A DNA stretch of 64,000 nt, taken from contig OU744447.1 of NCBI GenBank assembly GCA_916610825.1, positions 37,981,171 to 38,045,170 of the forward strand, read 5' to 3'. Positions within the stretch are counted from its first letter, which is position 1. Each line of letters starts with the position of its first letter. Positions 1-42,922 of this stretch are shown here, one piece after another. The notes under the pieces were generated by a model. The model saw only the letters and a list, made by a program, of their open reading frames with translations. It was not told where the DNA came from and did not search any database. A program made the position numbers and the translations under genes. This DNA is from Haliclystus octoradiatus. Its lineage: Eukaryota > Cnidaria > Staurozoa > Stauromedusae > Haliclystidae.

Positions 1-207
1 AGCAGAATTCTCTTAAAGCAAGATTTTCACAGTACTTCAAGTAAACTAATCACATCTGCACAACATGTGTTGTGCTTGACGAGTTTCTGTTATTATTTAA
101 ATTGATAAAAATATAACAGAAAGCTAGAATTGATTAATAGTTCGTGTATAAACTGGAACATTTAAAATCTGCGTAGTATTAGAGTCTCATAGAAAAAACA
201 TTAATTC

Positions 208-325
208 CGTCCATCGTCAGAAGACGCACGGTACTCATCTATTGTCCCAAATAGAGGCAATGCTAAGTGGACCAGCACCATAGTTGATCAGATATGACCA
301 GAGCCAGGTTGCTCTGCTCTCGTAA
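208..325 (-). repeat. Degenerate tRNA-type SINE fragment (unit A)
   Basis: The stretch around 275-320 matches the tRNA-like head of the SINE at 32638-32995: shared words include catagttgatcagatatga and gttgctctgc. The B-box side has decayed. The same fragment lies at 12107-12224 in unit B. It is non-coding. Confidence 0.55.
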
Positions 326-352
326 TGATATATACATTAAGTCCAGCCATCG

Positions 353-633
353 CCATTCATTTCAAAATGCTGGTGCGCGCGCATAAGTGGAATGATCTCC
401 CGTCAACAATGAAGGATGGATTAAGAAGGACCAGTTTCAAGTGTCTACTTGAGACGCATTTACTTGAAGTTTAATTATCGACCCTGTTATTATATTATTG
501 GTAATTTTCTTTTTTATATGTATATCTTAGTTAGTCAGTCCTGTGAAATAAAGTGTCTTAATACTGTTATCAGTTTATGCACATTTATCAGGTACTTCTG
601 AATAAATGATGATGATGATGATGATGATGATGA
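353..633 (+). repeat. LINE 3' end with (ATG)n tail (unit A)
   Basis: A reading frame at about 360-471 resembles the extreme C-terminus of LINE-encoded proteins (AHKWNDLP followed by FKCLLETHLL and a stop). It is followed by an AT-rich 3' UTR, a tgaataa signal and a (atg)n tail at 606-633. This is a 5'-truncated insertion. The unit B copy is at 12251-12528 with a shorter ATG tail. Related copies are at 25360-25654 (+), 34208-34640 (-) and 31570-31760 (-). Confidence 0.65.
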
Positions 634-712
634 TCCTACCTGAGCTAATACCAGAAATCATATATCATCCGCACTGACTGAATGGAATTTGATATTTGAT
701 TTTTTTTTTCAG

Positions 713-1682
713 AATGATGAATGATTTGGATAAAGCAGAGATGTTTTATAAAAAAGCAGTTGATCTTGAACCTCAAGTAAGGTTTTCAAAAAACATTTAC
801 AATTACTATGTGCTTTTGTTTGTTTGTTTGTTACGTTTATTCAGAAACCGGTAAGCGTGATGATGCTTCTTTTCACGGCGCTGACATGCTAACTGCTAAT
901 GACTGATAATAATCCTCATCCATTTTTTGATAGTGATTTGAACACATCCAAATGCCAAATCATAGGTTGCAAAGCATGAAACAATGAAAAAATCATCTGT
1001 TAGCTCAGTTCATGAACGATAAATTGTTCATTTTTAATGAACTTTCCATGGGGACAGATCATGAAATTATATTGCAATTTAATAAATTTCCATCTGTTCA
1101 TTTGAACTGGTTTAATATTAAGTTAACCTATAATGATACATATTTTTAAACGATAGACTGTTTCCTAGAAATTTGATTGGCTGATTATTTTAAGTGTGCA
1201 TGGACGAAGGCAAACGTCAGAATCAAAGCAACCAAAACTATGATTTAGATCACTAGTGTTATTTCTTTGTAAGCCAACTGTGTTGAACATTCAATACCTC
1301 TCCAGGAAAACCATCTGGAATTTGGGAGTATCAGAGAAGCTATATTTCCGAAGTGATGTTGATGTTGTTCATTGAATAAAGTATCTGCTCGTTTGGAGGG
1401 TGGTAAATCTAAATTAATCTAATTATGTACCTTAACACGAGGCTGTATTGTTTGAACCTTTATTCATAACTGCTTTCTGTTTCAATTTCATGATTTTCAA
1501 ATCCGCAGGAAGCATCTCATCATTTGAATTATGGCGCCATTCTTCATCTACGAAAAAAATATAAAATGGCAGCGATAGCTTATAACAAAGCATTAGAATT
1601 AAATCCAAATGATGATACTGTAAAATTAAATATAAAGAAAGTTAATTCATTGATCGAAAGACAAGAAATAAAAGGATTGTAA
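713..1682 (+). CDS. TMTC2: TMTC2, last two exons (unit A)
   Basis: Two exons, 713-776 and 1509-1682, encode the final TPR repeats of a TMTC2-like protein. The first gives MMNDLDKAEMFYKKAVDLEP. The second starts EASHHLNYGAILHLRKKYKM and ends ELNPNDDTVKLNIKK...EIKGL then TAA. TMTC proteins are ER multi-pass membrane enzymes that transfer O-mannose to cadherin-type domains, with luminal TPRs at the C-terminus; this is family knowledge, and only the TPR end is seen here. Acceptors (cag) and donor (gtaagg) are intact and the frame is open. The upstream exons of this copy must lie left of base 1. The exons match 12605-12668 and 13401-13574 in unit B with identical lengths (64 and 174 bp). Confidence 0.88.
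777..1508 (+). other. TMTC2 terminal intron with dispersed-repeat remnants (unit A)
   Basis: This intron contains a remnant at 820-900 of the dispersed repeat that is fuller at 39160-39320 (attcagaaaccggtaagc). It also has a short block with gttcatgaac-like words at 1010-1090. I see no coding sequence. The unit B counterpart is 12669-13400. Confidence 0.5.
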
Positions 1683-1731
1683 CCATTGGTAACGACAGAA
1701 TGGATATGCTTAAGTATGCAAGGCTTCATTA

Positions 1732-1944
1732 TCATGAAAACATAATATTTAAACAAGTTACATCGATGTTTAATAACAATAATGAACTTAGCATAATTAA
1801 ATATCTTTCATTTACTTGCTTTTTAACAAATTTATGAAGTTCATTAAAATAATCTGATTCAATATTAATGTCGAATGGTCGAGGATGAGATAAACAACTG
1901 ACGTACACTGGTAAACAAAACATAAACAAGGAAACATAACCCAT
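1732..1944 (-). CDS. Small putative secreted-peptide ORF (unit A copy)
   Basis: A 70-codon frame lies between the convergent TMTC2 and TUBGCP2 3' ends. It opens with a signal-peptide-like start (MGYVSLFMFCLPVYVSC), then LSHPRPFDIN and SDYFNELHKFVKKQ. A gtaaat donor-like sequence follows the KKQ codons, so the frame might be one exon of a spliced peptide precursor. The spacing of aromatic, Leu and Val residues loosely recalls the NPY/NPF helix, but the amidation motif (RxRF/Y-G) is not seen. It may simply be a chance ORF in a 3' region; copy B differs by one residue (P to L in the leader). Confidence 0.2.
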   Translation of the reverse strand: MGYVSLFMFCLPVYVSCLSHPRPFDINIESDYFNELHKFVKKQVNERYLIMLSSLLLLNIDVTCLNIMFS

Positions 1945-3594
1945 TTAAACCAGCAATGGACGACAAGGAATATAGGAAATAAATATATATATATTCAACA
2001 TGGTTTAGAATGTTATTATAGTTAACATCATACGATTGTTATATGTACGCATACAGCACAACACATGTAATTAGTAGAATATTTTGAATACACAAAGACA
2101 CCATTTTTACATGAAATAAATCAAATTTTACAGTATCGAGTGTAATGTTTTTTGATAGACTTGCAGTCTGCATAAGATAAAAAGCAGAGTCAAACTGAGG
2201 TATTATGAACATTAATTCCTTACTAACAATCCACAATATTTTACTTGCGATATCATTAAATGTTTTCGTTGCATCTTAGCCTCTATGAGTTTTGTTACTC
2301 TTGTCAAGATATGAATTGTATAGCAAAGGCGGAAGCAAAGGCTTGATATGATTATTAGACGTCATTAGATACAATTATATATATAAAGCCAGTATCGTTC
2401 TATTTTCAAGTTCCTGGGACTGTTACAGATAGAAATGATCCATCTAATTGATCTTGTTGGTTGTCCTTTTTATTATCTGTGAAACTGAAATTCATCAAAT
2501 CAGGATTGTCCTCGTCTAAAAGTGAATAAAAAATAGAATAGAATGTTTGTATTTTACGAGTTTTGCTTTAATCATGCTGAAGCCTGGTTTCCATATAGCA
2601 AATTTACATGAGTCGTGTTGCCTGTAACATTTTCCTCGGTAACTGCCGTAGTCTTGCCTGCGTCATTTCAAAGCTGAATTCACTCCAACTTTGAAATCAC
2701 CAAGGCAAGACGAACGATATCAGGTCTAAACAATAGAAAAAAGATCATTAAATGTCTACGGCTGTGACCCAGGTAAATGTTGCAGGCAGATTTGCTACAT
2801 GGGAACCAGGCTTAACAACAATTACAATAAAAAAGTTACTGGTCATTCTAGACTTTATAACTTATTGTTAAGTAAGGTTAAGGAAGATTATTTCAACATT
2901 ATTTCAACATATGAAGATAAGTAAATTTGAGAAGACTTTTCAAATGTTTGATATTCGATCAGAGGAGTAGCTTCTCTATTGTGAGAAGTGATTAGTTACA
3001 GTTAAGCCCTGAGCAAACGATGGAAACTTTTGAGCAACAAAACTGTTTTTGTCTGACGTGTGTTTTTCGTGTTCTGAAGCAGTCTTTTCAAGAGCGGCTA
3101 TGGCTAAACGGACCCGACTTTCACAAGAGTTTTCTAGAAAATCTCAGACTGGATTATTGAAAAATTTAAAGGGGCAAAATTGACCGGCAAAAGCTGCGAG
3201 CTTGAATTGAATTTATGCTTAGCATAATCACGTGATCCTAAGTGAGTAGCGCCCGCAGGTCATTTTTTCTCTTTTAAAAGCGCAAATGTTGCCGTCGTTT
3301 GCCCAGGGCTTCAGAATCAACGTTGATTTAATTAAATCCTGGATATAGTCACATCTTGTTTGTGATTGGTTATTTCGATGATCCAGAGTAAGTTTTCTAT
3401 TACAGAGAATAAACCTTTTTACAGGCATTTAAATTGAGAAATGGTTTAAACTTCAGTCTCTGGATAAGTTCCTATGCTCTTGTTTCAAGAGAAGATTTTT
3501 ATTGTAAAAACAATTTCTTGTTGTAAAGACTTCAGCAGCATTCTTGACTTGAGTCATGATGATTCAATTACGGAAGTCGAACAATGACAAAATA
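1945..3594. other. Intergenic space between convergent TMTC2 and TUBGCP2 3' ends (unit A)
   Basis: AT-rich DNA that should hold both 3' UTRs. At 2585-2815 an imperfect inverted repeat pairs a stretch containing agcctggtttccatatagca with its reverse near 2795-2815 (gctacatgggaaccaggctt); it is a MITE-like remnant. A TTAA-flanked MITE follows at 3170-3273. Short ORFs here look fortuitous. The equivalent in unit B is 13837-15495. Confidence 0.5.
3170..3273. mobile_element. TTAA-flanked MITE (unit A)
   Basis: The element starts aggggcaaaattgaccggc after TTAA (3166-3169) and ends with the imperfect inverse just before TTAA (3274-3277). The interior holds the words atgcttagc and cacgtgatcctaagtg, shared with the longer copy at 40405-40603. 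The TTAA target is typical of piggyBac- or Kolobok-type elements; that assignment is an inference. Unit B has it at 15060-15163. Half-sites occur near 5522 and 29330. Confidence 0.6.
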
Positions 3595-6418
3595 TTAAAC
3601 AATTCGGTTTCTTTGATTACCTTGCAAGTTTATATTTGAATTCTTCAGATTGTCAGAGTAAAAGCCATTATAATCTAGTCTCGATACCATATTCATCATT
3701 TGATGTTCACAATCAGTCGTTGAAAAGAGACTTAACTTATCAACAAAATCCAGCATTAGTTTCGAGAAGTTACTATCAAATGTTGCAATTGTTCGTTCAA
3801 AACTTTCACCATTCATCGTGTTCGTTACATGTTCAGTTATAACCTAAAAGAGGTATAGAGAATAAAATAATGTTATAGATGGGCTATGAAATACGGAGGA
3901 AATGCTTAAACAAATGCCGTTTTATTTCGAAAACATCAGTGAAACTGTGAAGTTTGGTAAATTTTACCAATGTTAGCGAAAATGAAAAGTAATTCGGGCA
4001 ATCTCTTTATGTTGGCTTCTGTTGTCTTCCATTTAATTTCACTTTGAAGACATTAAAAATTCTGCTAAGTACTAACATCATGCATATTCTATTGTTGTCG
4101 ACGTAGTTGGTTAAGTGGTCAAATGACTTTCTATCTTCGCCAACATCAAGTAGTGTTGATCAACAATGATGTGACGCAACTGATGATTGAAGTCTTCGAT
4201 TGACTAGTTACTAACCATCAACATATCACCGATGTTGGTGAAAATGAAAAACAATCAATTTCACCAATGTTGGCGTAAAAAGAAGTTTCATCCCCCCCCC
4301 CCCTAATGGTGGTGATAATCAAACGTCATTTGGCACGAGCTTAAAATGCTAACTAGCGTATTTTGATTCTAAGCAGATTCCTTTATCAGGCTGCAATCAT
4401 ACCATCATATTTAAATACTCACCTGGTCAGACGGACGAGATTGACTTGACCCAGCACGCATTGATTTACCACCGAACGTCTGCAGTGACGTTGGTTGATC
4501 ATCCCAACTAACATCGACACTGCGATTGAAACGCTACATCAAAAATATTTGAGCCAGAATCAATGTTTCATTATGTTGATCAGCGATAAGAACAAGACAC
4601 AATATTTTGTTATTCTTATCGTTGATCAATATAATGAAGTTAAATTCAAGTATATCCTATCCAACAGAATTAGTACTGGAAATGTTAATAATAGATAAGA
4701 AAATGGCTCTAAAAAAAGTTAACGACAGATAGCATGTGATAAAACAATTACAGTATGCGAGTTATGATTGAATATCAATGATAGTTACCTGGATGCAGTT
4801 GCAGAATGTGACACAAACCATCATCAACTTACTCACAACCTAAAGCAAATAATTATAATTATGAAGTTGTCAAATGTTTTCCTCAACTTTGATTAATGAA
4901 GAACCTTTTCAGATAGATCTATACATATTAGTTATGTGCTATACAGATTAGCGTCCATGGCAACGCTGGTCAAATAATTAGACGTATTCAATTTCATCAA
5001 AAAGATACGAAACTTCAACATTGGCAAGATTTCAATTCGCCTTCGATTTGAACTGCCCGTTATAAATTGTCGAACCTATAAAAACTAGTGAAAATCACTA
5101 AATTTGTCAATAAAATCATATTAAATAAATTATTGAATAAAGTTTATTATTTAAAACAACGTCAGAAAATCATAACTTCCCTACCACAAATTTGTTACTG
5201 TGTTAAGGTTATCTCGAGACAAATGTATGCATAATTTCTCGACAATGTATTATCTGTATTATTTCGCCAGTCAGACGTACATAAGTCGCGGACAACCACA
5301 AATATAGAAATAATTTATTTACAAACAGACACTACTATTAATATAAAGATAGCATTGTAGGAATCTCAAGGCACTTAAAGGCATAAAATTGACCATCAAA
5401 GTTGAAAAATGAATGCCATTTCTTAATCAGTGAATCACACGCCATTTCAAAGACCTTTCAAAGAATTTTATGCCTTCAAAAACAATATTTTATTAGCTTT
5501 TTCCTTGATATCGTTTTAAAGGGGCAAAAATGACAGGTGGGCTCTACACACTTAGAGTCGCGTGCGTGTTTGTCGTTCGTATTATTTCTATGATTGAAAC
5601 CATCCTGAAACTTGAAATTTAAAGCCATGCCAAAGCTTGATCGTTGAGCTTACGTTAAGCTTGATTCAAATTGAGCTCGTAGTGACCGCCGGTTAATGTT
5701 AATAATTAACTTTAGAGAAGAGAAACTTCATGACTGCATATCCTGCGGGGGGTGACACCCACTCCCAATAACAATTTGACACATTGCATTGTCATGTTGT
5801 CAATATGGAATGACAACATTCAGATGTCATATAGCAGTATTTACCTTGAGTAAAACAACATTTGTCAGCATACAATCTTTCAAACATCGATCAAGAAAAT
5901 CATTATGATGTTCAAGTACACCATCGATATTGGCAACCTAGCGAACAAATACAATCAACAACATGGCTGACAAAAATAGAAAGGTATGCAGCCTATTAAT
6001 TGCCCCTCTGGTAGAAATGGAAAATGGGTGATAGAAATGTGAGCGTTTGCATGATCAAATGAAAATTAGAAATCTCAATTCCATGTGAGAAAAATTCACA
6101 AGTTCATGAACCTTTCCTAAATTTCCAAAATTTTCCAGAATACTTAATTACTATTTCATGGACTGTTCACGGAAAGTTCATAAACAAGTTCATGAATTGT
6201 TCATGAACTTTTTATCAGCAGAAATAGCGAATAACTATATGAAGCAAGTTTAACAGCACAAAAATAAAGACTTCAGACAAAGGTAGAATTAACTTACCTT
6301 TTTTAAATTACTTTCCAATATTTGCCAATTGGGTTCAATAACTTCATACATCATGTAATGTTCCAGGTTTTGAACAAGATTAATCATTCTTTGACGTAAC
6401 ATAAACGCTGATTTATAC
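3595..6418 (-). pseudogene. TUBGCP2: TUBGCP2 orphan 3' exons (unit A)
   Basis: Five exons read on the minus strand: 6298-6418, 5845-5937, 4789-4839, 4423-4533 and 3595-3843. They encode the C-terminal part of GCP2 (YKSAFMLRQRM..., VANIDGVLEHHNDFL..., VVSKLMMVCVTFCNC..., then VITEHVTNT through SRLDYNGFY to the stop). Frames and splice sites are intact, but the duplication junction at 7377 removes everything 5' of the first of these exons, so no complete GCP2 can be made from this copy. Its C-terminus reads QGNQRNRIV, whereas unit B stops at QGNQGN, a difference produced by a few base changes. If the assembly is a collapsed diploid, this would instead be the other allele. Confidence 0.85.
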
Positions 6419-7377
6419 CTAGCGGAAAGGCGACAAAAATATCATAGGACAAAAGTTCCCACAGCTGTTTAAAAAGTATGTGCTACGGAACATTTAGATT
6501 TTTTGTTGAGTTTTTGATTTATCATTTAGTCACAAAAAAAGGTAGTAGCTATTTTCACGGGAATAGTTGGTTAGTTGGTAAGTATTTTTGTAGAATGTGA
6601 GTTTAATTGGCAGGATTAACCTTTTGATGCCAACCAAGAGTGCTTTGAAACGGAACAAAAGACCCTGTGCTCCAATGCCTTTTCTACTACACTGAGGCCA
6701 CTTACAATGATTAATTCCAGCATAGTTTAGTTAAATCTTTTACCCAAAAGGCGACCATTTTCAACTGGTATATCATGGGTCAGAAAATGATCCTGTATCT
6801 AAGTCAAGTGTGTGCAAATATCCCATGTATAATAGTAAATAGTAAAGTCAAGTATCCCATGCCAAAAGTTATGAATAGATGCAAACTGAATTAGTTCCAG
6901 TCCAGGCCTTTTTGTCAAGATTCAGTAGACCCTCTTGATATACAAACGGATTGAATTCTGTTGAAATGTATTCTGCTTCAATGAAGTTTCAAATTATATT
7001 TGGAACTGACACCCGGCACTGACACCCTGATAAATTGCTACTATCAACTTCACGTTTTTAGATATAATGAGAAACAACAAATTTATTCAACGTTGAAGCT
7101 GCACTTGATGGTAACTGTTTTTGTCGGAATAACATTTCTGTCAATAAATTTTTTGACGCTTTATTTTATGAAACACAAACCATGCTGATGTGTTCTTTAA
7201 TCTGTGATGAATTTTATTACTGTTCAACCATATCCTAAATCAGAAAAAAAAAGAAAATAGTTACATTTGAAACAGGTTATGATTTGAGAGTTAGAAAGTG
7301 AACCAAGATAGTTAGCCCTTGCGAAATAGGTTCATGAACTTTGATGGACTGTGCTGAATAGTTTAGGAGCTGTGCTG
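6419..7377. other. TUBGCP2 intron fragment with dispersed repeat and truncated MITE (unit A)
   Basis: 6510-6730 matches the dispersed repeat family at 39160-39320 and 40945-41110 (atttatcattta...cacaaa, then a gatgccaacc-type motif). 7312-7377 is the left part of a cccttgcgaaatag/gttcatgaac MITE cut by the duplication junction; its longer version is at 19205-19331. The ORF at 7000-7188 is not convincing. Confidence 0.5.
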
Positions 7378-7404
7378 AATAAAATTTTGTTTTTTATTCA
7401 ACAG

Positions 7405-10400
7405 ATCTGGTATTCCAATTAGTCCAGCGAAAGGTTTGTATCAATCTTAACACTAATTAATATATAAAAAAGTATTTTGTTCCTATTTTGAGGACTTATG
7501 TTAAGCTTGTCTGCATTTCAGACGGATTTGTATTTTTTTTTGTATAGCTGTTGACTAATTATAATATAAAATTTATAATATAAATAATATGGTATAGTCT
7601 ATAACTAATAGACAGTATCAGGAGACTTGTTGAAGAAATAAATTCTAAGAAAATTGTACAAGAAACAGAGCCAATAAGTCGGATACTATTTGAAAAAAAG
7701 TCTGTTTGCGTCGCAGGCAATTCTAAATCGTGTTTATCACGAGTTTGCAATCATGCGAATGAACCAAACAAATCGCAAGAATCTGTCGTAATATTTGATA
7801 ATCAATTTTTGCGAATGATTACATGAATTAAAAACATTATGATATCATTATATTTTTTTTTTGTATATCGTATCCTTATGTTCCTGTTTATCTATAGCTT
7901 TGAGTAACTTGGCAAATATTCTTGGATCACAAGGGAAATTAACAGAAGCTGAGTCTGCATATAGATCTGCTATCAAGCATCGTCCAAATATGGCTGACGC
8001 TCATTATAATCTGTAAGTTAATTAAACATTTGCAAGGACGCATCGCGGTCCCAGGGAAGGGGAGGGGTAACTCAAGAAATTTCAGGGACATGGGGGTGCC
8101 AATTTGAATTCAGAATTTTTCCCTCTGAAATTTAGTTTTTCCAAAATTGATACCTCAAATATTTTATTCAGGCCAAAATGTATACCCCAAATATCTTTTT
8201 AATGAAGCATATTTGAAAGTTGATTACAATTTCGTGAGGGCTTACATCAATATTTTTTGCTCATTGAAAACAATACCTCGAATATTTTATAAATTCTGAA
8301 ATAGATGCCTCAAAAATTTCGAAGACCGTGAAAAGGTACCCTCAATAATTGGCACGTACCCGTATACCAACCATTTGAAGTTACCCCCCCCCCCGGGGAT
8401 CGCATAAAACGGAATAGTGATTTTTATTACTATATATTTTATTTTTGAAGGGGCATTCTTCTTCACAATCAAGATCGTTTAGAAGAAGCAATTGAATCAT
8501 ATCAGAATGCTATTACATACCGTCCAAAATTAGCAGGTTGTTATTATTTATTTTATAATATGAATGACAGTGATGTACAGATTCAAAATCTGATGACTCC
8601 AAATCCAAAGAAAGTTTTAATAGAAGCACTTAACTGCAATTAACTATGCCACATACCAGTCCTGAGTTTTTTTCTGAAACCATAGGCGGGATTATGGAAA
8701 CATATACGTCCAACTCAGAGGGTTTTAATTATCAACTTTTGTTGAGTTTTCAAATGAGAATTCTATTTAATATTATTAAATATTTTTTTCTCGAATTAAA
8801 TCGTCTTTTTGTTGAATAGCTGCGTATTTGAATCTTGGAATAACACTGTACGACAATGATCAAAAAGAAGAAGCAATCGAGGTATGTATGTAGCTTTGTT
8901 ATAACCATTGCAGCATTTTACAGTCTTGACCGTGTTATAGTATATTTATGTAATGTTACGTTTGTTCAATTCTTGGTTCCTTGTTATGAATCACGTTACC
9001 CATTGACGTAACATGCCTCAGTTTGTTCCTTGTATCTGTTCCGTGATTGATTCAATCTAGTTTTACTTACGTTGTTTGTTATTGTAAGTAGGCCTAATGC
9101 TGAGTAGTAATTCCATGCATGTTTCATTATTGTGTTATTGACGTAATGCTAACTTGTAGCTCCTCTTTGCTAATTATAAAGTCCTAGTAAATTGTAAACT
9201 TAGTCTGTTGTTCAGTGTACAAAAGCTAAATAAAGCTATCAGTAACCAACTACCGTGTCTTCCTTGCGCTGTACAATACGTGGTATTACAACTGTTAGGC
9301 ATAGCTACTTGGGTAATATACAAAGATGACTCAATTATTACTTACCTTCGTCTAATCTATAGGTTCTTCTAAATGCAAGACATATCAGTGATGTTGGTTT
9401 GAAAGACCCTCGGGCTCATGCTATGTCATGTAAGTGAGAATATCAGAAATACCACATCATCAAAACTATAACATATTATTGTTATCAAAATTAATATTCA
9501 ATTGCTTTGCTTGTAGTGACTTCCATCCGATATAACCTTGGCAAATACTATTTTGAAATGGGAAATCCTAGGGTGAGAAGAGAGTTTGATATTTTTCGGG
9601 ACAAAATTCAGAATGTTCATTCAAACTTATACAGAGATTTCTACAATTCCCATAGCAGTCATGCATGTACCGTTATTGTTGCCTAAAACTGTGCCATTAT
9701 AGTTACCTAAACTGTGGACAGTGGTAACTTTTCTTAGATTTTTAAGATTGTCAATATTATAATTTCAGTCAGTTATATACTAAAAACCCTTACAGCATGT
9801 ATATATTAAATAGACATAGCATTAGTAAATTGACAAGAATCAACCACACAACTATTGAAATATAGAATGTATTACAATTGAATTAGCCTAATAGCCTCTT
9901 TCTTAATGTCACAATATTTCACCAAGCGCTGCTACTGTTCTCCCTACATGGAATGTGAGATCACATCTTGAAGCAGACTGTAAGGCTTCGATATTTATTT
10001 GCGGTCAAACTCTTCTTACTTAAAAACCATATTATAAATCGGAGAAGAATATAATTTACATTCTTAAAATTATGTGATGCTAAAAAAATTAGGAATCTAA
10101 ATATAATAAAATATTTCAAGAATCGACTGAGATGAGGACTTGAACGTCATAACAGTATATCAGAAATAGCAAGTGTTTCTGTGGAACGGATTGAGAGCTT
10201 GCCACTTGCGTCAAGCTGTGCTTGACATTTGGATCGCGTGACCGCGCTTGGTGAATAGCCCACTTCCATCCGTACCACAGAAGGGGTTACTAAGCAACGT
10301 CGATTGTATATCTGTGGGGCTATCTGTAGCAGCATATGTATGTATTGTTTACGTGACAAATGATTTCGATTTTAGAAATCTCTTGAATCGTTAAAAGATG

Positions 10401-13400
10401 CAATTGCGGGGATGCCAGCTGCCTTTGAAGCTCACAGCATATATAACATGAAAGGTATTTATAACTTTTAAAAGTAAACGTTTGAAATAATAAGAATATA
10501 TGATTGTGTGTCATATTTTTGTTTATATTTATAGGTCAAGGACATTCCTTTCTTGGTGAAAATGATTTAGCTGAAAAATGTTATCAGGAAGCCTTGAAAC
10601 GCAAATCAAATCATATCCCAGCTCAAATCGCATACGCTAAACATCTATCGAAAACGGTAAAAACATTAACAGAGCAAAATAATTAACTTGATTAGCTTGA
10701 GTTCTTGCTACAAATGTATGTATGTATGTATGTATGTATGTATGTATGTATGTATGTATGTATGTATGTATGTATGTATGTATGTATGTATGTATGTATG
10801 TATGTATGTATGTATGTATGTATGTATGTATGTATGTATGTATGTATGTATGTATGTATGTATGTATGTATGTATGTATGTATGTATGTATGTATGTATG
10901 TATGTATGTATGTATGTATGCATGTATGTATGTGTGTATGTATGTATGTATGTCCAGAGCAGCTGATTGAATTTCTGTTGTGGTTTAGGGTCAGAATGAA
11001 AAAGCAGAAAAGTGGTTTAAAAGAGCCAAAGAATTAGATCCAAATAATCGAGATACCATCGTCCATTTTGGTAAGATCATTAATTAAATGAGTAAGCTGC
11101 TTTTAATATAGAAGATATATACACACTCCAAGTAAGTTCGTACTCTGATCAAGCAGATAAATTACAAATATGAACGTCTGTAGTAGTAGTCATGGTTTGT
11201 AGGAACGTCTTTGATAGCAAAGATTCTTTGGCAAAAGGTAATTTCAATGCAGAAACATCAATACCTGTTGTGTTTGAGAATATTCACATATATCATTTGC
11301 AATGCATCAATTACAAGCACTGTATGAATTACTCAAGTCGAACGCAGTCATGAGATCCTTCCGAATCAATCCGTAACATGGAACATTTCCGTTCACAATA
11401 ATTCTTCGTTTGATTGATACTGATTCTGCTCCTTAAAAATTTTTAGGTCTATACTTGAAGTCAATTAAGCGCATCGAAGAGGCATCGACATACCTGGAAC
11501 ATGCATTGGAGTTACAACAGTCGGCAGGATTATATGTGCAAGCAGCAGAAGTGCGAAGGTAAGAGAAGAAGTACATGTTAGGTATGCAGACAGCATCATT
11601 TATATTAAAAAGAATAAAGAATCTCATGTAAATTATTTTCTAAACCATGCAAATAATGCCTCCATATAAGTTATTTCCTAACGTGAGTAAATAATCCTTT
11701 GGTAGAAGTATAACATTTCATGAAACAAAAAAACATTCTTCAAATTGTAACCTCAACATGTTTCTCAAAACGAGCCTGATCATTGCCTTGACATTTTATT
11801 ATTTCTCGAAATAGGAAAATATGTTCTCAAATATAAAGCATCTAACGCTTTGAAATAAGTTAATCGTTTCTTAGAATAAGCAACCAATCTCTTAACCCAA
11901 GCAGAATTCTCTTAAAGCAAGATTTTCACAGTACTTCAAGTAAACTAATCACATCTGCACAACATGTGTTGTGCTTGACGAGTTTCTGTTATTATTTAAA
12001 TTGATAAAAATATAACAGAAAGCTAGAATTGATTAATAGTTCGTGTATAAACTGGCACATTTAAAATCTGCGTAGTATTAGAGTCCCATAGAAAAAACAT
12101 TAATTCCGTCCATCGTCAGAAGACGCATGGTACTCATTTATTGTCCCAAATAGAGGCAATGCTAAGTGGACCAGCACCATAGTTGATCAGATATGACCAG
12201 AGCCAGGTTGCTCTGCTCTCGTAATGATATATACATTAAGTCCAGCCATCGCCATTCATTTCAAAATGCTGGTGCGCGCGCATAAGTGGAATGATCTCCC
12301 GTCAACAATGAAGGATGGATTAAGAAGGACCAGTTTCAAGTGTCTACTTGAGACGCATTTACTTGAAGTTTAATTATCGACCCTGTTATTATATTATTGG
12401 TAATTTTCTCTTTTATATGTATATCTTAGTTAGTCAGTCCTGTGAAATAAAGTGTCTTAATACTGTTATCAGTTTATGCACATTTATGAGGTATTTCTGA
12501 ATAAATGATGATGATGATGATGATGATCCTACCTGAGTTAATACCAGAAATCATATATCATACGCACTGACTGAATGGAATTTGAAATTTGATTTTTTTT
12601 TCAGAATGATGAATGATTTGGATAAAGCAGAGATGTTTTATAAAAAAGCAGTTGATCTTGAACCTCAAGTAAGGTTTTCAAAAAACATTTACAATTACTA
12701 TGTGCTTTTGTTTGTTTGTTTGTTACGTTTATTCAGAAACCGGTAAGCGTGATGATGCTTCTTTTCACGGCGCTGACATGCTAACTGCTAATGACTGATA
12801 ATAATCCTCATCCATTTTTTGATAGTGATCTGAACACATCCAAATGCCAAATCATAGGTTGCAAAGCATGAAACAATGAAAAAATCATCTGTTAGCTCAG
12901 TTCATGAACGATAAATTGTTCATTTTTAATGAACTTTCCATGGGGACAGATCATGAAATTATATTGCAATTTAATAAATTTCCATCTGTTCATTTGAACT
13001 GGTTTAATATTAAGTTAACCTATAATGATACATATTTTTAAACGATAGACTGTTTCCTAGAAATTTGATTGGCTGATTATTTTAAGTGTGCATGGACGAA
13101 GGCAAACGTCAGAATCAAAGCAACCAAAACTATGATTTAGATCACTACTGTTATTTCTTTGTAAGCCAACTGTGTTAAACATTCAATATCTCTCCAGGAA
13201 AACCATCTGGAATTTGGGAGTATCAGAGAAGCTATATTTCCGAAGTGATGTTGATGTTGTTCATTGAATAAAGTATCTGCTCGTTTGGAGGGTGGTAAAT
13301 CGAAATTAATCTAATTATGTACCTTAACACGAGGCTGTATCGTTTGAACATTTATTCATAACTGCTTTCTGTTTCAATTTCATGATTTTCAAATCCGCAG

Positions 13401-13574
13401 GAAGCATCTCATCATTTGAATTATGGCGCCATTCTTCATCTACGAAAAAAATATAAAATGGCAGCGATAGCTTATAACAAAGCATTAGAATTAAATCCAA
13501 ATGATGATACTGTAAAATTAAATATAAAGAAAGTTAATTCATTGATCGAAAGACAAGAAATAAAAGGATTGTAA
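7405..13574 (+). CDS. TMTC2: TMTC2, C-terminal TPR exons (unit B, 12 exons)
   Basis: Exons: 7405-7433, 7898-8012, 8451-8536, 8820-8881, 9363-9429, 9517-9572, 10376-10454, 10535-10656, 10989-11070, 11447-11558, 12605-12668 and 13401-13574. All phases agree and give 348 codons plus TAA. The product is an unbroken TPR array: SGIPISPAKALSNLANILGS, AESAYRSAIKHRPNMADAHY, GLKDPRAHAMSLTS, IRYNLGKYYFEMGNP, YNMKGQGHSFLGENDLAEK, NHIPAQIAYAKHL, ELDPNNRDTIVHFG and the MMNDLDKAE end. The order and motifs follow vertebrate TMTC2 (its YRSGI-x-x-x-PAKA-x-x-NLGN start, LKDP-x-AH and HIPA-x-x-x-YGKLL segments). TMTC2 is an ER O-mannosyltransferase-family protein. The membrane-embedded N-terminal half is absent because the unit starts 27 bp before the first of these exons, so this copy alone cannot encode the enzyme. 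Exons from the upstream copy could splice into it. Confidence 0.92.
8040..8404. mobile_element. TIR MITE in TMTC2 intron
   Basis: Between the exons at 7898-8012 and 8451-8536, the ends are inverted copies: cgcatcgcggtcccaggg...ggggtaactcaag on the left and tttgaagttacccc...ggggatcgcat on the right. The right end includes an 11-base C run. The interior is AT-rich with repeated cctcaaatattt-type words and has no coding potential. Confidence 0.5.
8949..9290 (+). repeat. Possible solo LTR in TMTC2 intron
   Basis: A 342-bp block begins TGTAAT and ends ATTACA. It contains ctaaataaagctatc, like a polyadenylation signal, near its 3' side, and matches no neighbouring sequence. The termini and signal suit a solo LTR, but I find no convincing target duplication, so the limits are tentative. 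Confidence 0.3.
10714..10953. repeat. (ATGT)n microsatellite
   Basis: About 60 nearly perfect tetranucleotide repeats, with only a few interruptions near 10921-10935. They lie in the TMTC2 intron between exons 10535-10656 and 10989-11070, ending about 35 bp before the acceptor. All ORFs translated from it are artefacts. Confidence 0.97.
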
Positions 13575-13623
13575 CCATTGGTAACGACAGAATGGATATG
13601 CTTAAGTATGCAAGGCTTCATTA

Positions 13624-13836
13624 TCATGAAAACATAATATTTAAACAAGTTACATCGATGTTTAATAACAATAATGAACTTAGCATAATTAAATATCTTT
13701 CATTTACTTGCTTTTTAACAAATTTATGAAGTTCATTAAAATAATCTGATTCAATATTAATGTCGAATGGTCGAGGATGAGATAAACAACTGACGTACAC
13801 TAGTAAACAAAACATAAACAAGGAAACATAACCCAT
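13624..13836 (-). CDS. Small putative secreted-peptide ORF (unit B copy)
   Basis: Same frame as 1732-1944 with the leader reading MGYVSLFMFCLLVYVSC. Preservation within such a recent duplication says nothing about selection. See the unit A entry for the motif description and doubts; function unknown. Confidence 0.2.
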   Translation of the reverse strand: MGYVSLFMFCLLVYVSCLSHPRPFDINIESDYFNELHKFVKKQVNERYLIMLSSLLLLNIDVTCLNIMFS

Positions 13837-15059
13837 TTAAACCAGCAATGGACGACAAGGAATATAGGAAATAAATATATATATATTCAACATGGTTTAG
13901 AATGTTATTATAGTTAACATCATACGATTGTTATATGTACGCATACAGCACAACACATGTAATTAGTAGAATATTTTGAATACACAAAGACACCATTTTT
14001 ACATGAAATAAATCAAATTTTACAGTATCGAGTGTAATGTTTTTTGATAGACTTGCAGTCTGCATAAGATAAAAAGCAGAGTCAAACTGAGGTAATATGA
14101 ACATTAATTCCTTACTAAAAATCCACAATATTTTACTTGCGATATCATTAAATGTTTTCGTTGCATGTTAGCCTCTATGAGTTTTGTTACTCTTGTCAAG
14201 ATATGAATTGTATAGCAAAGGCGGAAGCAAAGGCTTGATATGATTATTAGACGTCATTAGATACAATTATATATATAAAGCCAGTAACGTTCTATTTTCA
14301 AGTTCCTGTGACTGTTACAGATAGAAATGATCCATCTAATTGATCTTGTTGGTTGTCCTTTTTATTATCTGTGAAACTGAAATTCATCAAATCAGGATTG
14401 TCCTCGTCTAAAAGTGAATAAAAAATAGAATAGAATGTTTGTATTTTACGAGTTTTGCTTTAAACATGCTGAAGCCTGGTTCCCATATAGCAAATTTACA
14501 TGAGCCGTTGCCTGTAACATTTTCCTCGGTCACAGCCGTAGTCTTGCCTGCGTCATTTCAAAGCTGAATTCACTCCAATTTTGAAATCACCAAGGCAAGA
14601 CGAACGATATCAGATCTAAACAATAGAAACAAGATCATTAAATGTCTACGGCTGTGACCCAGGTAAATGTTGCAGGCAGATTTGCTACATGGGAACCAGG
14701 CTTAACAACAATTACAATAAAAAAGTTACTGGTCATTCTAGATTTTATAACTTATTGTTAAGTAAGGTTAAGGAAGACTATTTCAACATTATTTCAACAT
14801 AAGAAGATAAGTAAATTTGAGAAGACTTTTCAAATGTTTGATATTCGATCAGAGGAGTAGCTTCTCTATTGTGAGAAGTGATTAGTTACAGTTAAGCCCT
14901 GAGCAAACGATGGCAACTTTTGAGCAACAGAACTGTTTTTGTCTGACGTGTGTTTTTCGTGTTCTGAAGCAGTCTTTTCAAGAGCGGCTATGGCTAAACG
15001 GACCCGACTTTCACAAGGGTTTTCTAGAAAATCTCAGACTGGATTATTGAAAAATTTAA

Positions 15060-15163
15060 AGGGGCAAAATTGACCGGCGAAAGCTGCGAGCTTGAATTGA
15101 ATTTATGCTTAGCGTAATCACGTGATCCTAAGTGAGTAGCGCCCGCAGGTCATTTTTTCTCTT
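15060..15163. mobile_element. TTAA-flanked MITE (unit B)
   Basis: Duplicate of 3170-3273, flanked by TTAA at 15056-15059 and 15164-15167, in the TMTC2/TUBGCP2 intergenic space (13837-15495), which otherwise mirrors 1945-3594. Confidence 0.6.
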
Positions 15164-15495
15164 TTAAAAGTCGCGCAAATGTTGCCGTCGTTTGCCCAGG
15201 GCTTCAGAATCAACGTTGATTTAATTAAATCCTGGATATAGTCACATCTTGTTTGTGATTGGTCATTTCGATGATCCAGAGTAAGTTTTCTATTACAGAG
15301 AATAAACCTTTTTACAGGCATTTAAATCGAGAAATGGTTTAAACTTCAGTCTCTGGATAAGTTCCTATGCTCTTGTTTCAAGAGAAGATTTTTATTGTAA
15401 AAACAATTTCTTGTTGTAAATACTTCAGCAGCATTCTTGACTTGAGTCATGATGATTCAATTACGGAAGTCGAACAATGACAAATATTAAACAAT

Positions 15496-18400
15496 TCAAT
15501 TTCCTTGATTACCTTGCAAGTTTATATTTGAATTCTTCAGATTGTCAGAGTAAAAGCCATTATAATCTAGTCTCGATACCATATTCATCATTTGATGTTC
15601 ACAATCAGTCGTTGAAAAGAGACTTAACTTATCAAGAAAATCCAGCATTAGTTTCGAGAAGTTACTATCAAATGTTGCAATTGTTCGTTCAAAACTTTCA
15701 CCATTCATCGTGTTCGTTACATGTTCAGTTATAACCTAATAGAGGTATATAGAATAAAATAATGTTATAGATGGGCTATGAAATACGGAGGAAATGCTTA
15801 AACAAATGCCGTTTTATTTCGAAAACATCAGTGAAACTGTGAAGTTTGGTAAATTTTACCAATGTTAGCGAAAATGAAAAGTAATTCGGGCAATCTCTTT
15901 ATGTTGGCTTCTGTTGGCTTCCGTTTAATTTCACTTTGAAGACATTAAAAATTCTGCTAAGTACTAACATCATGCATATTCTATTGTTGTCGACGTAGTT
16001 GGTTAAGTGGTCAAATGACTTTCTATCTTCGCCAACATCAAGTAGTGTTGATCAACAATGATGTGACGCAACTGATGATTGAAGTCTTCGATTGACTAGT
16101 TACTAACCATCAACACATCACCGATGTTGGCGAAATTGAAAAACAATCAATTTCACCAATGTTGGCGTAAAAAGAAGTTTCATTCCCCCCCCTCATGGTG
16201 GTGATAATCAAACGTCATTTGGCACGAGCTTAAAATGCTAACTACCGTATTTTGATTCTAAGCAGATTCCTTTATCAGGCTGCAATCATACCATCATATT
16301 TAAATACTCACCTGGCCAGACGGACGAGATTGACTTGACCCAGCACGCATTGATTTACCACCGAACGTCTGCAGTGACGTTGGTTGATCATCCCAACTAA
16401 CATCGACACTGCGATTGAAACGCTACATCAAAAATATTTGAGCCAGAATCAATGTTTCATTATGTTGATCAGCGATAAGAACAAGACACAATATTTTGTT
16501 ATTCTTATCGTTGATCAATATAATGAAGTTAAATTCAAGTATATCCTATCCAACAGAATTAGTACTGGAAATGTTAATAATAGATAAGAAAATGGCTCTA
16601 AAAAAAGTTAACGACAGATAGCATGCGATAAAACAATTACAGTATGCGAGTTATGATTGAATATCAATGATAGTTACCTGGATGCAGTTGCAGAATGTGA
16701 CACAAACCATCATCAACTTACTCACAACCTAAAGCAAATAATTATAATTATGAAAGTTGTCAAATGTTTTCCTCAACTTTGATTAATTAATGAAGAACCC
16801 TTTCAGATAGATCTATACATATTAATTGTGTGCTATACAGATTAGCGTCCATGGCAACGCTGGTCAAATAATTAGACGTATTCAATTTCATCAAAAAGAT
16901 ACGAAACTTCAACATTGGCAAGATTTCAATTCGCCTTCGATTTGAGCTGCCCGTTATAAATTGTCAACCTATAAAAACTAGTGAAAATCACTAAATTTGT
17001 CAATAAAATCATATTAAATAAATTATTGAATAAAGTTAATTATTTAAAACAACGTCAGAAAATCATAACTTCCCTACCACAAATTTGTTACTGTGTTTAA
17101 GGTTATCTCGAGACAAATGTATGCATAATTTCCCGACAATGCATTATCTGTATTATTTCGCCAGTCAGACGTACATAAGTCGCGGACAACCACAAATATA
17201 GAAATAATTTATTTACAAACAGACACTACTATTAATATAAAGATAGCATTGTAGGAATCTCAAGGCACTTAAAGGCATAAAATTGACTATCAAAGTTGAA
17301 AAATGAATGCCATTTCTTAATCAGTGAATCACACGCCATTTCAAAGACCTTTCAAAGAATTTTATGCCTTCAAAAACAATATTTTATTAGCTTTTTCCTT
17401 GATATCGTTTTAAAGGGGCAAAAATGACAGGTGGGCTCTACACACTTAGAGTCGCGTGCGTGTTTGTCGTTCGTATTATTTCTATGATTGAAACCACCCT
17501 GAAACTTGAAATTTAAAGCCATGCCAAAGCTTGATCGTTGAGCTTACGTTAAGCTTGATTCAAATTGAGCTCGTAGTGACCGCCGGTTAATGTTAATAAT
17601 TAACTTTAGAGAAGAGAAACTTCATGACTGCACATCCTGCGGGGGGGGGGGGTGACACCCACTCCCAATAACAATTTGACACATTGCATTGTCATGGTGT
17701 CAATATGGAATGACAACATTCAGATGTCATATAGCAGTATTTACCTTGAGTAAAACAACATTTGTCAGCATACAATCTTTCAAACATCGATCAAGAAAAT
17801 CATTATGATGTTCAAGTACACCATCGATATTGGCAACCTAGCGAACAAATACAATCAACAACATGGCTGACAAAAATAGAAAGGTATGCAGCCTATTAAT
17901 TGCCCCTCTGGTAGAAATGGAAAATGGGTAATAGAAATGTGAGCGTTTGCATGATCAAATGAAAATTAGAAATCTCAATTCCATGTGAGAAAAATTCACA
18001 AGTTCATGAACCTTTCCTAAATTTCCAAAATTTTCCAGAATACTTAATTACTATTTCATGGATTGTTCACGGAAAGTTCATAAACAAGTTCATGAATTGT
18101 TTATGAACTTTTTATCAGCAGAAATAGCGAAAACTATATGAAGCAAGTTTAACAGTACAAAAATAAAGACTTCAGACAAAGGTAGAATAAACTTACCTTT
18201 TTTAAATTACTTTCCAATATTTGCCAATTGGGTTCAATAACTTCATACATCATGTAATGTTCCAGGTTTTGAACAAGATTAATCATTCTTTGACGTAACA
18301 TAAACGCTGATTTATACCTAGCGGAAAGGAAACAAAAATATCATAGGACAAAAGTTCCCACAGCTGTTTAAAAAGTATGTGCTACGGAACATTTTGATTT

Positions 18401-19515
18401 TTTGTTGAGTTTTTTGATTTATCATTTAGTCACAAAACAGGTAGTAGCTATTTTCACTGGAATAGTTGGTTAGTTGGTAAGCATTTTATGTAGAATGTGA
18501 GTTTAATTGACAGGATTCCCCTTTTGACGCCAACCAAGAGTGCTTTGCAACGGAACAAAAGACCCTGTGCTCCAATGCCTTTTCTACTACACTGAGGCCA
18601 CTTACAATGATTAATTCCAGCATAGTTTAGTTAAATCTTTTACCCAAAAGGCGACCATTTTCAACTGGTATATCATGGGTCTATAAAACGATCATGTATC
18701 TAAGTCAAGTGTGTGCCAAATATCCCATGTATAATAGTAAATATCATAGTCAAGTATCCCATGCCAAAAGTTATGAATAGATGCAAACTGAATTAGTTCC
18801 AGTCCAGGCCTTTTTGTCAAGATTCAGTAGACCCTCTTGATATACAAACGGATTGAATTCTGTTAGAATGTATTCTGTTTCAATGAAGTTTCAAAATTAT
18901 ATTTGGAAGTAATACCCGGACCTGACACCATGATAAATTGCTACTATCAACTTCAAGTTTTTAGATATAACGAGAAACAACAAATTTGAAGCTGCACTTG
19001 ATGGTAACTGTTTTTGTCGGAATAACATTTATGTCAATAACTTTTTTGACGCTTTATTTTATGAAACACAAACCATGCTGATGTGTTCTTTAATCTGTGA
19101 TGAATTTTATTACTGTTCAACCATATCCTAAATCAGAAAAAAAAAGAAAATAGTTACATTTGAAACAGGTTATGATTTGAGAGTTAGAAAGTGAACCCAG
19201 ATAGTTAGCCCTTGCGAAATAGGTTCATGAACTTTGATGGACTGTGCTGAATAGTTTAGGAGCTGTGCTGTAGTACAGTTCATACAAAATTAGTCCATTA
19301 ATTTGCACAGTTCCGGTTCATGAACATTGATAAGCTCAAAGTCAACAATCATGAACCATGGATTGAAAACATTCTGAGTTACAGAAATATCATGAATGAT
19401 ATGATCATAAAAACATGATGATATGAATCAAATGATATGAAATTCTCACCTGTTTCGTTCAATATTTTGAGAAAAGCTTGAATCTTCGAACCATGATTCG
19501 AAACAATGTTATTGT
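15496..19515 (-). CDS. TUBGCP2: TUBGCP2 exons 26-31 (C-terminal GRIP2 domain and tail)
   Basis: Exons: 19450-19515 (candidate), 18197-18317, 17745-17837, 16678-16728, 16312-16422 and 15496-15735. They encode SWFEDSSFSQNIER (exon 26), YKSAFMLRQRMINLVQNLEH and YMMYEVIEPNWQILESNLKK, GVLEHHNDFLDRCLKDCMLT, KLMMVCVTFCNCIQ, a Ser/Gln-rich linker, then TFDSNFSKLMLDFLDKLSLF and DCEHQMMNMVSRLDYNGFY. These match the gamma-tubulin-contacting half of GCP2. Exon 26 is placed by its gtgaga donor, a tag acceptor and correct phase at both ends, but it has TAA as its second full codon, where GCP2 normally carries the conserved VW pair. It may be misplaced, damaged or misread. The last five exons recur in unit A. 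Confidence 0.85.
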
Positions 19516-22500
19516 CTACCCCGTTTACTGTTTGTCATAGCCGAATCATAACATTCAAATTCATTTTGAATCAGAAATTGAATAATGTTTGTGTGGCGTT
19601 TTGTTGACAGTGTTTCGATATTAGAGTTCTAATGAAAGCTTCACTCAACCCTTCTAGGTGGGATTGGATACTTACGTGCATAATTGCCTTTCAACGTGTT
19701 TTGCATAAAACAAATGACGAAACAGCATCTGATATTTTGTGAGAGCCTGCGGGTAATCAAACATTTAGACATTAGAATTCATGAAAGTGATACCTCAAAT
19801 AGTGGGTGCTGCAGAGAAGACCTTTACAACGTTCGGATTTTATCATACTATCTTGTCGCATAACCAAAGAAGCAGGGTCCGACAAAAGTGGGGATCCTAG
19901 GGTCCTACATCCTGGAAGGCCATTGCAAAGTTGGAAGAAAATTGATAAAAGCGAAACCTGTACATAACGGCAGTTATGAAAGGTAAATATATTGACCACT
20001 ATAGACAGGTGGCCTTCATATACAGATTTGATTCAATAGAAAATACTCTTTCAGACATTGCAAGAGTGACCACTATAGACAGGTGGCCGCTGTATAGAGG
20101 TGGCCGTGATAACAGGTTTGACTGTAAAGGTTAAACCTCAACAAACAATTCAAAGAAAATGTTTCAAATTGTTTCAAAATTCAGGAAGGCCAAACTTTTG
20201 GTCAGACACTGCAAGGAAGCAGAGAGTATTTTTGGCCCAGGAAATTTTTGCAAATGTGAAAGTTAATTTTTTTATTTCCTTTGAGAATCTACTTCACATT
20301 ATAAATCTGCAATCAAACTGCAGTTCACAATCAAAATGAAGCCCATTAATGAATCATTCATACTTTGTCGTTTTCAGTTGGATCGACATGTCATGGAAAA
20401 TTCAAAAGAAATCATCTTCATAAAAACGTATTTACATTTATCCACTAACATTAGTAATAATTTAATAGGTTGACAGTATAAAATAAAAACTACAATCTAA
20501 CCTTTTTGCTTAAGATTAATGCTAAAGGCCATTTAACGGAATAGTCCAATGTGAATGCCTCTAGACCTGAAAATGAAAAGATGTTATGAAAAGATGAAAA
20601 TAATGGCTAAATACTGTATACAACACCAGAGCACTAGCTTTATAGGCTAGTACGAATTGACATTTGATCTGAGATTTTCAAAGATGCGTCTATTAGACAA
20701 TTAGCTGTGGAAATGATCTCATTCATAAACTCTATAGCGTCTCTCAATAGACAAGCAAATTTTGCTTACGAGATGACGTCAACCACTGTATATCATATTT
20801 CATAAATCAATGTCTTTAGTCTGTAAATATTTTTTTTATCATGTGGTTGAAATAAAATTCTATTCTATTCTATTCTATTTAGCTGCGGCAAAATGACTTT
20901 TTAGCTGCGATTTTTGAAAGATGTGGCTATCAGTCAATTAGCTGCAACAATGATCTATTTACCTGCGTAGTTAATTCCATGCCTTACAAAAATGATACAA
21001 TCAGTCAATCCTTGTTATACAAACATCTGATTGGCAATATATAATTTGAGCAATAATTAATTTCAGTCAACACAGCAAAACTTGACAAAGTGACGAAGAA
21101 AATTCTAAGGAATATTTATTTGAACTTTAAAACTTTGTCTTTGCTAATTATGCCTATTATGCCTGTGGTACTGGTTCAATAAAGGATTTAAAAAAATGTC
21201 TAATTGAATTGAAGACTGATAACACTTACCTGATATGTGTGATTCTGTTGGTTCTTGGAATGGCAGTTGAACCCCTGATCATAAACATACAATTAAATGC
21301 AACATATACTGATACAGTGAAACCAGTATATAATGGTCAGCTACGAGAGGTAGATAAATTGACCATTATACACAGGTGGCCGCTGTATAGAGGTGACCGC
21401 TATAACAGGTTTGACTGTACTATTGTATTTTCTACCAGGTTGTTCAAAGAGCCGGGATCCATGAACAATGATGCATGGGATGATGGACGGTCAGCAGTAT
21501 CAATCTACTAGATTTGCAATTATCAACTGTGCTTTCAATTACTAAAATTAACTGTTCTGATTTGAATAAGCCAGCTTTGAAATATTTGATAAAATTTTTG
21601 AAATTTGGAAAACAATTTTGAAAATCGATTTTGTAAGGTTTTTGCGTATCCCAGCTTAGTTTGTGGAAGACTGATTTCTACTACAAGACATGATGTTCAT
21701 TAAACCAGAGTGAGACTCAGCCATCTATCTATGCATAGAGTCATCCATTGGGTTATTGTAATTTATCACACCTGTGATGAAAATTAGGATATATATGCTC
21801 CCCCGTATACAGCTGTTCATCCTAGCCCCCTTCTTTACAGGCTGTTGCATTACCATTGCGGAACCAGGCACTGTTGCTACGCATTAAACAATGGAAGTTG
21901 ATGACCTATCAATATTACTTTGTAATACTTCTGATCTCATGATACAGTCAAGCTTCATTAATATTCCCATCTGGTACGAATGAAAAATGGGACATTAAGC
22001 AAGGTGAGATATTAAGTGAGGTAGAATTATGAGAGTTTGTATGGAGAATGGAAAATAGAAATCAATTTATGTGGGGATAATAAGCAATGTGGGACATTAT
22101 AAGAGGGAATATTAACCAAGTTTGACTGTATATTCAAAATAATTTGACAGGGTCAGTGGTAAAGCTGACAAGTTACAATATCCAATCTATGATAAAACTT
22201 TTGCTGGATAAAATGTCTTCTTTTCCTTGATGAATTGCATTGAATTCCATTTTGACATATACTCACCAGGCTTTTCATGCGTGACAGATAGAATCCTCAG
22301 TAATTGAGTTATCAGGTCATAAGATACAAGCTCACATCTGAAATGAATAAATATTCAAATTGAAAATGTATGGATAATAATAACAATAATTTAGTCTCAT
22401 TCTTACAGGAATACTGTAAAATGTTTGCAATATGCCCAATAAACCATCATGCAATATCTAAACTGAACATTGTGAGTCATTGTCATTTGTCGTCAATGAA

Positions 22501-38100: not shown

Positions 38101-38515
38101 TTGCTATATCTTGTGCCCATACTGCTCATCGTAGAATCGACGTGTTTGAGATGGCTGATGATATAGATTGTATTAGATTAAAAACCTACATCTTGGACTT
38201 CTTGTTGTGTCATTGGAGACTTTGTATTTGCATCAGCCAATTCTTTCAACTCTGCAGGTAAATCATGTTCTAGACTTTCTTTAAGTTTGATTCGCTCCTT
38301 CATATTTCGTTCGAGAAACATTGATAACTAAAACAATAAACAAAAATAAGCAGGAAGACTTAATTTGAGGTCATGTAACCTATCATTGTGATTTAGGTTA
38401 ACAAAGTTTGGCCTACAACTTGAAGTTGGAATCTAATATTATCTCGTTTCTGAAACTTAATTATTACTAGTTGTGGGGTAGATATTAGAGGAAAGTTTTA
38501 AAATCTATGTGTGTA

Positions 38516-38553
<38 letters not shown>

Positions 38554-42602: not shown

Positions 42603-42922
42603 TTATTGTGGTATCGTCGGTTCTCTTAAACGATGCCATCTTGCGATTGGTTTTCCCGGGTTACGCATCATTTCTCTCCATTGTTTTAATTGTTTACCAC
42701 TTGCTAACGCGCCAAGTAGTAATTCTCCGATTGGTTCGCCTTTTTCTCCTTTATCATAATCAGCAACCATAAATAATAATGATGTTGTTTCAATTTTTTC
42801 AAAATCTACTTTGAAAACAAAACGTTCATTATAAGCTGGGTTGAGAGTTCGCATTTTTACAGTAGTCTTTCTTTTACCAACTTTCTTTCCATCTTGCACA
42901 ACCCAAAATTTTACAAAAGGAT
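42603..42922 (-). CDS. Synaptotagmin-like C2B domain, terminal exon
   Basis: The exon opens at a tag acceptor (42923-42924) and ends at TAA 42605-42603. It encodes (D)PFVKFWVVQDGKKVGKRKTT, TLNPAYNERFVFKV, VADYDKGEKGEPIGELLLG and WREMMRNPGKPIARWHRL. This is the second half of a C2B domain: a Lys-rich beta-4 strand, the TLNP-x-YNE motif, the calcium-loop D-x-D (ADYDKG) and the C-terminal W-H-x-L end of synaptotagmins. Such proteins are membrane-tethered calcium or phospholipid sensors in vesicle traffic. The rest of the gene lies upstream (rightward), probably beyond the N gap; no further exon was found. The paralogue cannot be decided, so no symbol is given. Confidence 0.85.

Follow-up and report, generated by a model that had tools for sequence, protein, structure and literature searches.

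A gapless array of three 11.9-kb units with a mosaic middle unit carries the 3′ parts of a TMTC gene and TUBGCP2 in Haliclystus octoradiatus

Locus and source sequence

The window analysed here is a 64,000-nucleotide stretch of the genome of the staurozoan Haliclystus octoradiatus (C2:37981171-38045170), in which two genes run towards each other, a TMTC-family gene on the plus strand and TUBGCP2 on the minus strand, and have their 3′ exons in a tandem array of units of about 11.9 kb. Since the left edge of the window cuts off most of this array, three units are visible only with upstream DNA, and we have added 30 kb of C2 sequence to the left. Positions are given as the C2 coordinate minus 37981170, negative values lying upstream of the window. 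The assembly has 33 scaffolds and nine chromosomes (total 261,898,343, longest 39,977,743, N50 28,991,210), and was made from 68x HiFi reads sheared to 12-20 kb by way of HiCanu, purge_dups, one 10X polishing round and SALSA2, with a QV of 56.6 and without full phasing (PMC9975415). The sample is one pseudo-haplotype of one individual, and our genome-wide searches covered 261.86 Mb in 33 contigs. All exon models are predictions built by eye from reading frame and splice edges.

Three head-to-tail units

A blastn comparison of the window with itself aligned positions 1-7377 with 11900-19270 on the same strand (97.96% identity over 7397 columns including gaps), confirming to the base the repeat that the original prediction had read as a tandem duplication of about 11.9 kb. 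The tandem arrangement and the unit length stand, but the copy number is three and not two, as the upstream alignments make clear: -16393..7377 aligns with -4495..19270 (98.96%, 23822 columns) and -16393..-4496 with 7378..19270 (98.36%, 11923 columns). The three units follow each other head to tail without a gap. U1 (-16393..-4496, 11898 bp) lies wholly outside the window and defines what we call the A type; U3 (7378..19270, 11893 bp) defines the B type, and its TUBGCP2 3′ exons adjoin more 5′ exons to the right; U2 (-4495..7377, 11873 bp) is a hybrid, of which the part in the window, 1..7377, is A-type from about 157 on and near-identical to U1.

The U2/U3 junction (7377/7378) recurs between U1 and U2 (-4496/-4495), and the two joins are identical over 120 bases before and 81 bases after them, the result that copying of a single founding junction would give. 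With up to three mismatches allowed, the junction word has two genome places, both in the array, and its reversed control has none under the same limit. The terminal exon of the TMTC gene has three genome places (all 100% identical) and that of TUBGCP2 also three (98-100% identical), all of them in the array; these place counts for junction and exons are lower bounds, all three candidates from each exon's first look having been scored. Beyond the array ends the sequence is unrelated, since the 100 bases outside each end agree with the matching inner-unit positions at only 21% and 28% (ungapped). The array contains no N, the sole N run in -29999..64000 being 43091-43290, far from the repeat. 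Gapless head-to-tail copies with a defined junction are what characterizes a tandem segmental duplication, and this is the form of the assembled array.

Two simpler origins of the repeat were considered and set aside. Chance is ruled out by three 11.9-kb units between unrelated flanks, and a dispersed repeat is rejected as the full explanation by the same three units together with the two tested exons, which were found nowhere else in the genome. A DNA search with the whole unit, in which 39 of 7177 candidates were scored, listed dispersed repeats alone and missed the array itself, so that this search gives no copy count.

On its left side, the unit starts 27 bp short of a splice acceptor of TMTC. 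The join is blunt: the end of the unit shares no base with the end of the left flank, nor does its start with the start of the right flank, and no exact match shared by the sequences within 300 bases of the two edges is longer than 10 bases.

Two convergent genes and their copied exons

Domain and structure-chain matches bear out the two convergent genes that had been proposed from the window. On the plus strand, the TPR half encoded in the unit (TPR_1, E 5.2e-46) is preceded in the left flank by a TMTC_DUF1736 exon (E 2.3e-30), and this order of domains identifies a TMTC gene. Two single exons further 5′ have no Pfam match, and a rough frame join of the 5′ exons gave a PMT match at E 0.004 (17.2 bits against a cut-off of 22.7). 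Their place in the gene, and the choice of TMTC2 over TMTC1, 3 or 4, are our assumption from the human sequence. TMTC_DUF1736 was found at two genome places, here and on C11; the C11 match (C11:1656584-1656745), the only other one found genome-wide, is partial (positions 21-74 of 75) and has one in-frame TAG.

Each unit carries 12 TMTC exons, 1048 bases with the stop, every inner edge being AG and GT, and the encoded TPR half of 349 residues is identical across U1, U2 and U3. In U3 the first copied exon is predicted at 7405..7433 on the plus strand, starting 27 bp past the unit edge and preceded by CAG; the other 11 are predicted on the same strand at 7898-8012, 8451-8536, 8820-8881, 9363-9429, 9517-9572, 10376-10454, 10535-10656, 10989-11070, 11447-11558, 12605-12668 and 13401-13574. 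The terminal exon lies at 1509..1682 (plus strand) in U2, 100% identical to the other copies, and at C2:37970807-37970980 in U1. An ATGT microsatellite at 10714..10953, in a TMTC intron, differs in length and interruptions among the three units and is a ready marker for distinguishing them in reads. The phase of the last TMTC exon on the left agrees with exon 1 of the unit, and the full-length gene is predicted to run on into U1.

The gene on the minus strand contributes five exons to the unit, 559 bases with the stop, predicted in U3 at 19127-19074, 18317-18197, 17837-17745, 16728-16678 and 15735-15496. Its model matches the GCP2 chain of 6tf9 (E 1.7e-109) and the GCP_C_terminal domain (E 6.8e-88), the joined model spanning domain positions 1 to 309 of 309. 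It is closer to GCP2 than to other GCPs, with 364-369 bits for GCP2 chains and at most 68.5 bits for GCP3 chains, as measured with the model lacking exon 19127-19074, and is therefore TUBGCP2. This first model was about 18 residues short, and the absent exon was a candidate for rearrangement damage until the exon was found at 19127-19074. Its score of 32 exceeds the maxima of 20 shuffles (17-31), a margin narrow on its own, and the exon keeps the reading frame and is bounded by AG and GT. To the right of the array, the open frame with the nearest TUBGCP2 exon (19675..19764, minus strand) has a donor phase that fits exon 19127-19074; further exons were followed rightward to about 24.7 kb, reaching residue 502 of the 6tf9 chain, and one GCP_N_terminal match lies at 28406-28489 on the minus strand (26.5 bits against a cut-off of 29.4). 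TUBGCP2 thus appears to run on into U3.

The terminal TUBGCP2 exon of U2 (3595..3843, minus strand) is 98% identical to that of U3, and its changed stop codon makes the frame three residues longer; the stop is shifted by three residues in both U1 and U2. At a site where leucine and valine alternate, U3 has leucine, as does the GCP2 chain of 6tf9.

With TMTC carried on by U1 and TUBGCP2 by U3, U2 lacks the head of either gene, and its window part (1-7377) is not a gene-continuing copy as had been supposed. The TPR-only TMTC copies and headless TUBGCP2 copies anticipated in the original prediction are supported by the unit exon models. Its explanation for the survival of both complete genes holds insofar as further 5′ TMTC exons lie to the left and further 5′ TUBGCP2 exons to the right; the amendment is that TMTC continues into U1, outside the window.

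The middle unit is a mosaic

The units are not uniformly similar, an amendment to the original prediction, which had noted low divergence. Substitutions number 35/11869 between U1 and U2, 141/11868 between U1 and U3, and 108/11846 between U2 and U3. Among 142 ungapped variable sites, U1 alone differs at 34, U3 alone at 107 and U2 alone at one, and their distribution along the unit is sharply divided: 33 of the 34 U1-only sites fall no further right than unit position 3804, and 104 of the 107 U3-only ones no further left than 4684. A single switch accounts for 137 of the 142 sites, which form 8 runs as compared with a shuffled mean of 54.2 and minimum of 38 (10000 shuffles, none of which gave so few). 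Of the five sites that do not fit, three form one patch (9673-9682) and the other two lie at 16163 and 18438. It is clear, then, that U2 is a mosaic, its left third being B-type like U3 and its right two-thirds A-type like U1.

The switch in U2 lies between -723 and 157. Its counterpart in U3 is 11176..12056, from the last U1-only to the first U3-only site of the main blocks, and over this 880-bp tract A and B are identical. Unequal crossing-over of misaligned A-B chromatids gives the order A-(B/A)-B and not the opposite; the array shows this very pattern, an extra middle unit with one switch, its left like the last unit and its right like the first.

Between A and B, noncoding differences amount to 32/3424 on the left and 101/6837 on the right (133/10261 in total, 1.3%), part of which may be allelic and predate the duplication. 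Over the whole unit, only 5 substitutions and 6 indels separate U2 from its donor blocks, and the third copy would therefore be very recent, far younger than the A/B split, the A/B duplication itself being the older event. Among the differences between U2 and its donors, a C run, the ATGT array and an A-run pair sit in low-complexity tracts.

Origin of the array

Taken together, these observations are best explained by a tandem segmental duplication that is truly present in three copies on chromosome 2 and arose in two steps, an account to which we give a probability of about 80%. An 11.9-kb segment with one edge in a TMTC intron and the other in a TUBGCP2 intron would first have been copied in tandem to give A-B. 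The blunt join and the longest edge match of only 10 bases fit end joining or a replication-type event that needed no homology at the join. The second step would be a recent unequal crossing-over between misaligned A-B chromatids, placed by the mosaic within the 880-bp identical tract and resulting in A-(B-left/A-right)-B. Because the two genes are convergent, each would keep an unbroken copy, which passes through the leftmost unit for TMTC and through the rightmost for TUBGCP2.

Several points weigh against this account. The unit contains dispersed repeats. The differences between U2 and its donors outside the low-complexity tracts form two patches with the opposite type, 9649-9682 (3 substitutions and 3 indels) and 16163, which could reflect gene conversion or mis-polishing. 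The mosaic alone is no proof of a third copy, because an assembly loop walked twice over a true two-copy A-B array yields exactly the same order, A-(B/A)-B. Such an artefact would agree with the few differences between U2 and its donors, and the 880-bp identical tract exceeds the minimum overlap of HiCanu, 500 bases. The unit of 11.9 kb is, moreover, near the read length set by shearing to 12-20 kb (PMC9975415). Yet a re-used path would be identical to its donors before polishing, and U2 is not, as the patch at 9649-9682 shows. HiCanu is also an overlap assembler that places each read once, so that re-use of a path would be unusual. We regard a twice-walked loop as unlikely, though it deserves to be taken seriously.

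Another competing route to the same array is a second duplication of A, giving A-A-B, after which gene conversion with U3 as donor would have replaced the left third of U2. The opposite-type patches, one in each block of U2, do suggest that short conversions may occur in the array, but this route requires two events where one suffices, and the converted tract must reach the unit edge and happen to match the order expected from crossing-over; we consider it highly improbable. Scarcely plausible is an uncollapsed haplotype, in which two alleles of one locus stand side by side, although the original prediction had found the low divergence compatible with it. A divergence of about 1% is within the allelic range, and curation of this incompletely phased assembly took out 33 haplotypic duplications (PMC9975415). 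According to a study of such heterotype false duplications, the pairs are mostly separated by gaps and are sometimes joined gaplessly by sequence without read support (PMC9516828). No gap lies between the copies here, and two alleles would give neither three copies, nor one blunt junction occurring twice, nor a hybrid unit.

Coding changes and the spare exon blocks

In addition to the arrangement of the units, we have also checked the coding changes between them, the counts being small for both genes. All four A/B differences in TMTC coding sequence are synonymous, a result with a chance of 0.015 if one copy had been free of selection. Had one copy been released from selection at the split, about 4.0 nonsynonymous changes would be expected at the noncoding rate of the gene itself (probability of none, 0.019), or 5.4 at the unit-wide rate (0.005). 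In TUBGCP2 the four coding differences comprise one synonymous, two amino-acid and one stop change, and selection on its spare copies is, with four differences, not distinguishable from one free copy. No difference was found among the units in their splice dinucleotides.

The headless copies are spare exon blocks, and their expression is only hypothetical. It is conceivable that the spare TPR exons are used, those of U1 being spliced to exons of U2 or U3 to give a TMTC protein with extra TPRs, and such use would be compatible with any of the origins weighed above. The identical TPR protein in three units, the exclusively synonymous changes with probabilities of 0.005-0.019 by three counts, and the conserved splice dinucleotides all point this way, as does exon 11447-11558, which ends in the phase required by exon 1 of the next unit. 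A fitting phase is found, however, in just 2 of the 11 non-terminal exons, no more than by chance, and in-frame exon repetition was accordingly dropped as functional evidence. Only four coding changes are involved, and A/B differences that were mostly allelic and older than the duplication would give the same pattern without any use. We therefore hold use of the spare exons to be distinctly unlikely. Still more doubtful is a modular expansion of TMTC as a whole, in which a doubled 5′ block and a tripled TPR block would surround a single-copy catalytic core, with in-frame splicing from U1 to U2 or U3, repeated TPR superhelices, and purifying selection on the TPR blocks while the introns drift.

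Neighbourhood and side observations

A second tandem duplication lies to the left, with copies of 8.75 kb at -38568..-29766 and -29765..-21017. They differ by 13 indels and by 42/8739 substitutions, of which 22 fall in the last 750 bases, and they bear frames that we take to be the N-terminal exon of TMTC and the one that follows it. This duplication and the array have no common sequence at E 1e-5. The single-copy DNA between the two is limited to -21016..-16394, which includes the DUF1736 exon, and given both duplications only the middle of TMTC is therefore single copy. Inside the duplicated 5′ block, frames at L011:4778-6482 resemble a non-LTR reverse transcriptase, a label given by eye. 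Within the window, self-alignment showed two minisatellite-like tandem repeats, at 58321-59391 and 59675-61036, whose periods are about 200 and 206 bases.

For comparison, the first 38.3 kb of a 200-kb sample of C1 (C1:10000001-10200000) contained no direct repeat of at least 1 kb at 90% identity, and against this stretch the array locus is duplication-rich. From 10038382 to its end the sample is largely a satellite-like tandem array with a 2.52-kb unit, 63 copies being over 2 kb long and about 98.5-98.9% identical, with a 200-N gap at 10089132. The 2.52-kb unit has no open frame over 92 amino acids, and an Rfam search of one 10-kb piece of the C1 array (L045) gave no match. An 18,316-base contig has frames in its first 5 kb that we read by eye as presumably cox1, cox2 and a family B DNA polymerase. 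A CCCTAA telomere was also seen in this genome. The mitochondrial genome of the species is 18.3 kb (PMC9975415).

Relation to known systems and significance

Gain of a copy with a hybrid middle unit is known from classical unequal crossing-over at tandem duplications, as at Bar in Drosophila and in globin and opsin arrays; the present array shares this outcome and differs from these cases in having no known selected phenotype or dosage role. The maize locus q-gamma-27 (27-kDa gamma-zein) is alike in that a duplication with A and B copies rearranges into alleles with one copy and perhaps into alleles with three; there, however, the unit contains a whole gene whose dosage matters (PMC6904753), whereas in H. 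octoradiatus the unit is confined to the 3′ parts of two convergent genes, and the middle unit is a visible internal hybrid. Heterotype false duplications likewise place near-identical segments side by side, dissecting genes and leaving partial copies (PMC9516828). The H. octoradiatus array differs from them in its lack of a gap, its three copies, its identical blunt junctions and its hybrid middle unit. Literature searches on the species, false duplications, triplications and TMTC2 tandem duplication found no report of this locus, the one match for TMTC2 with tandem duplication being a cattle paper.

For annotation, the locus calls for caution, since two spurious 'TPR-only TMTC' genes and as many spurious 'C-terminal TUBGCP2' genes can be called here. 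The process is ordinary and of a known kind, and this instance of it is unusually legible and clean: a two-step record of how partial gene copies may arise and multiply, by a blunt tandem duplication and then a crossing-over that can be placed within 880 bp. If the spare exons are unused, the array would be an ordinary copy-number change; if the spare TPR exons are in truth spliced in, it would offer a natural test of exon-block expansion.

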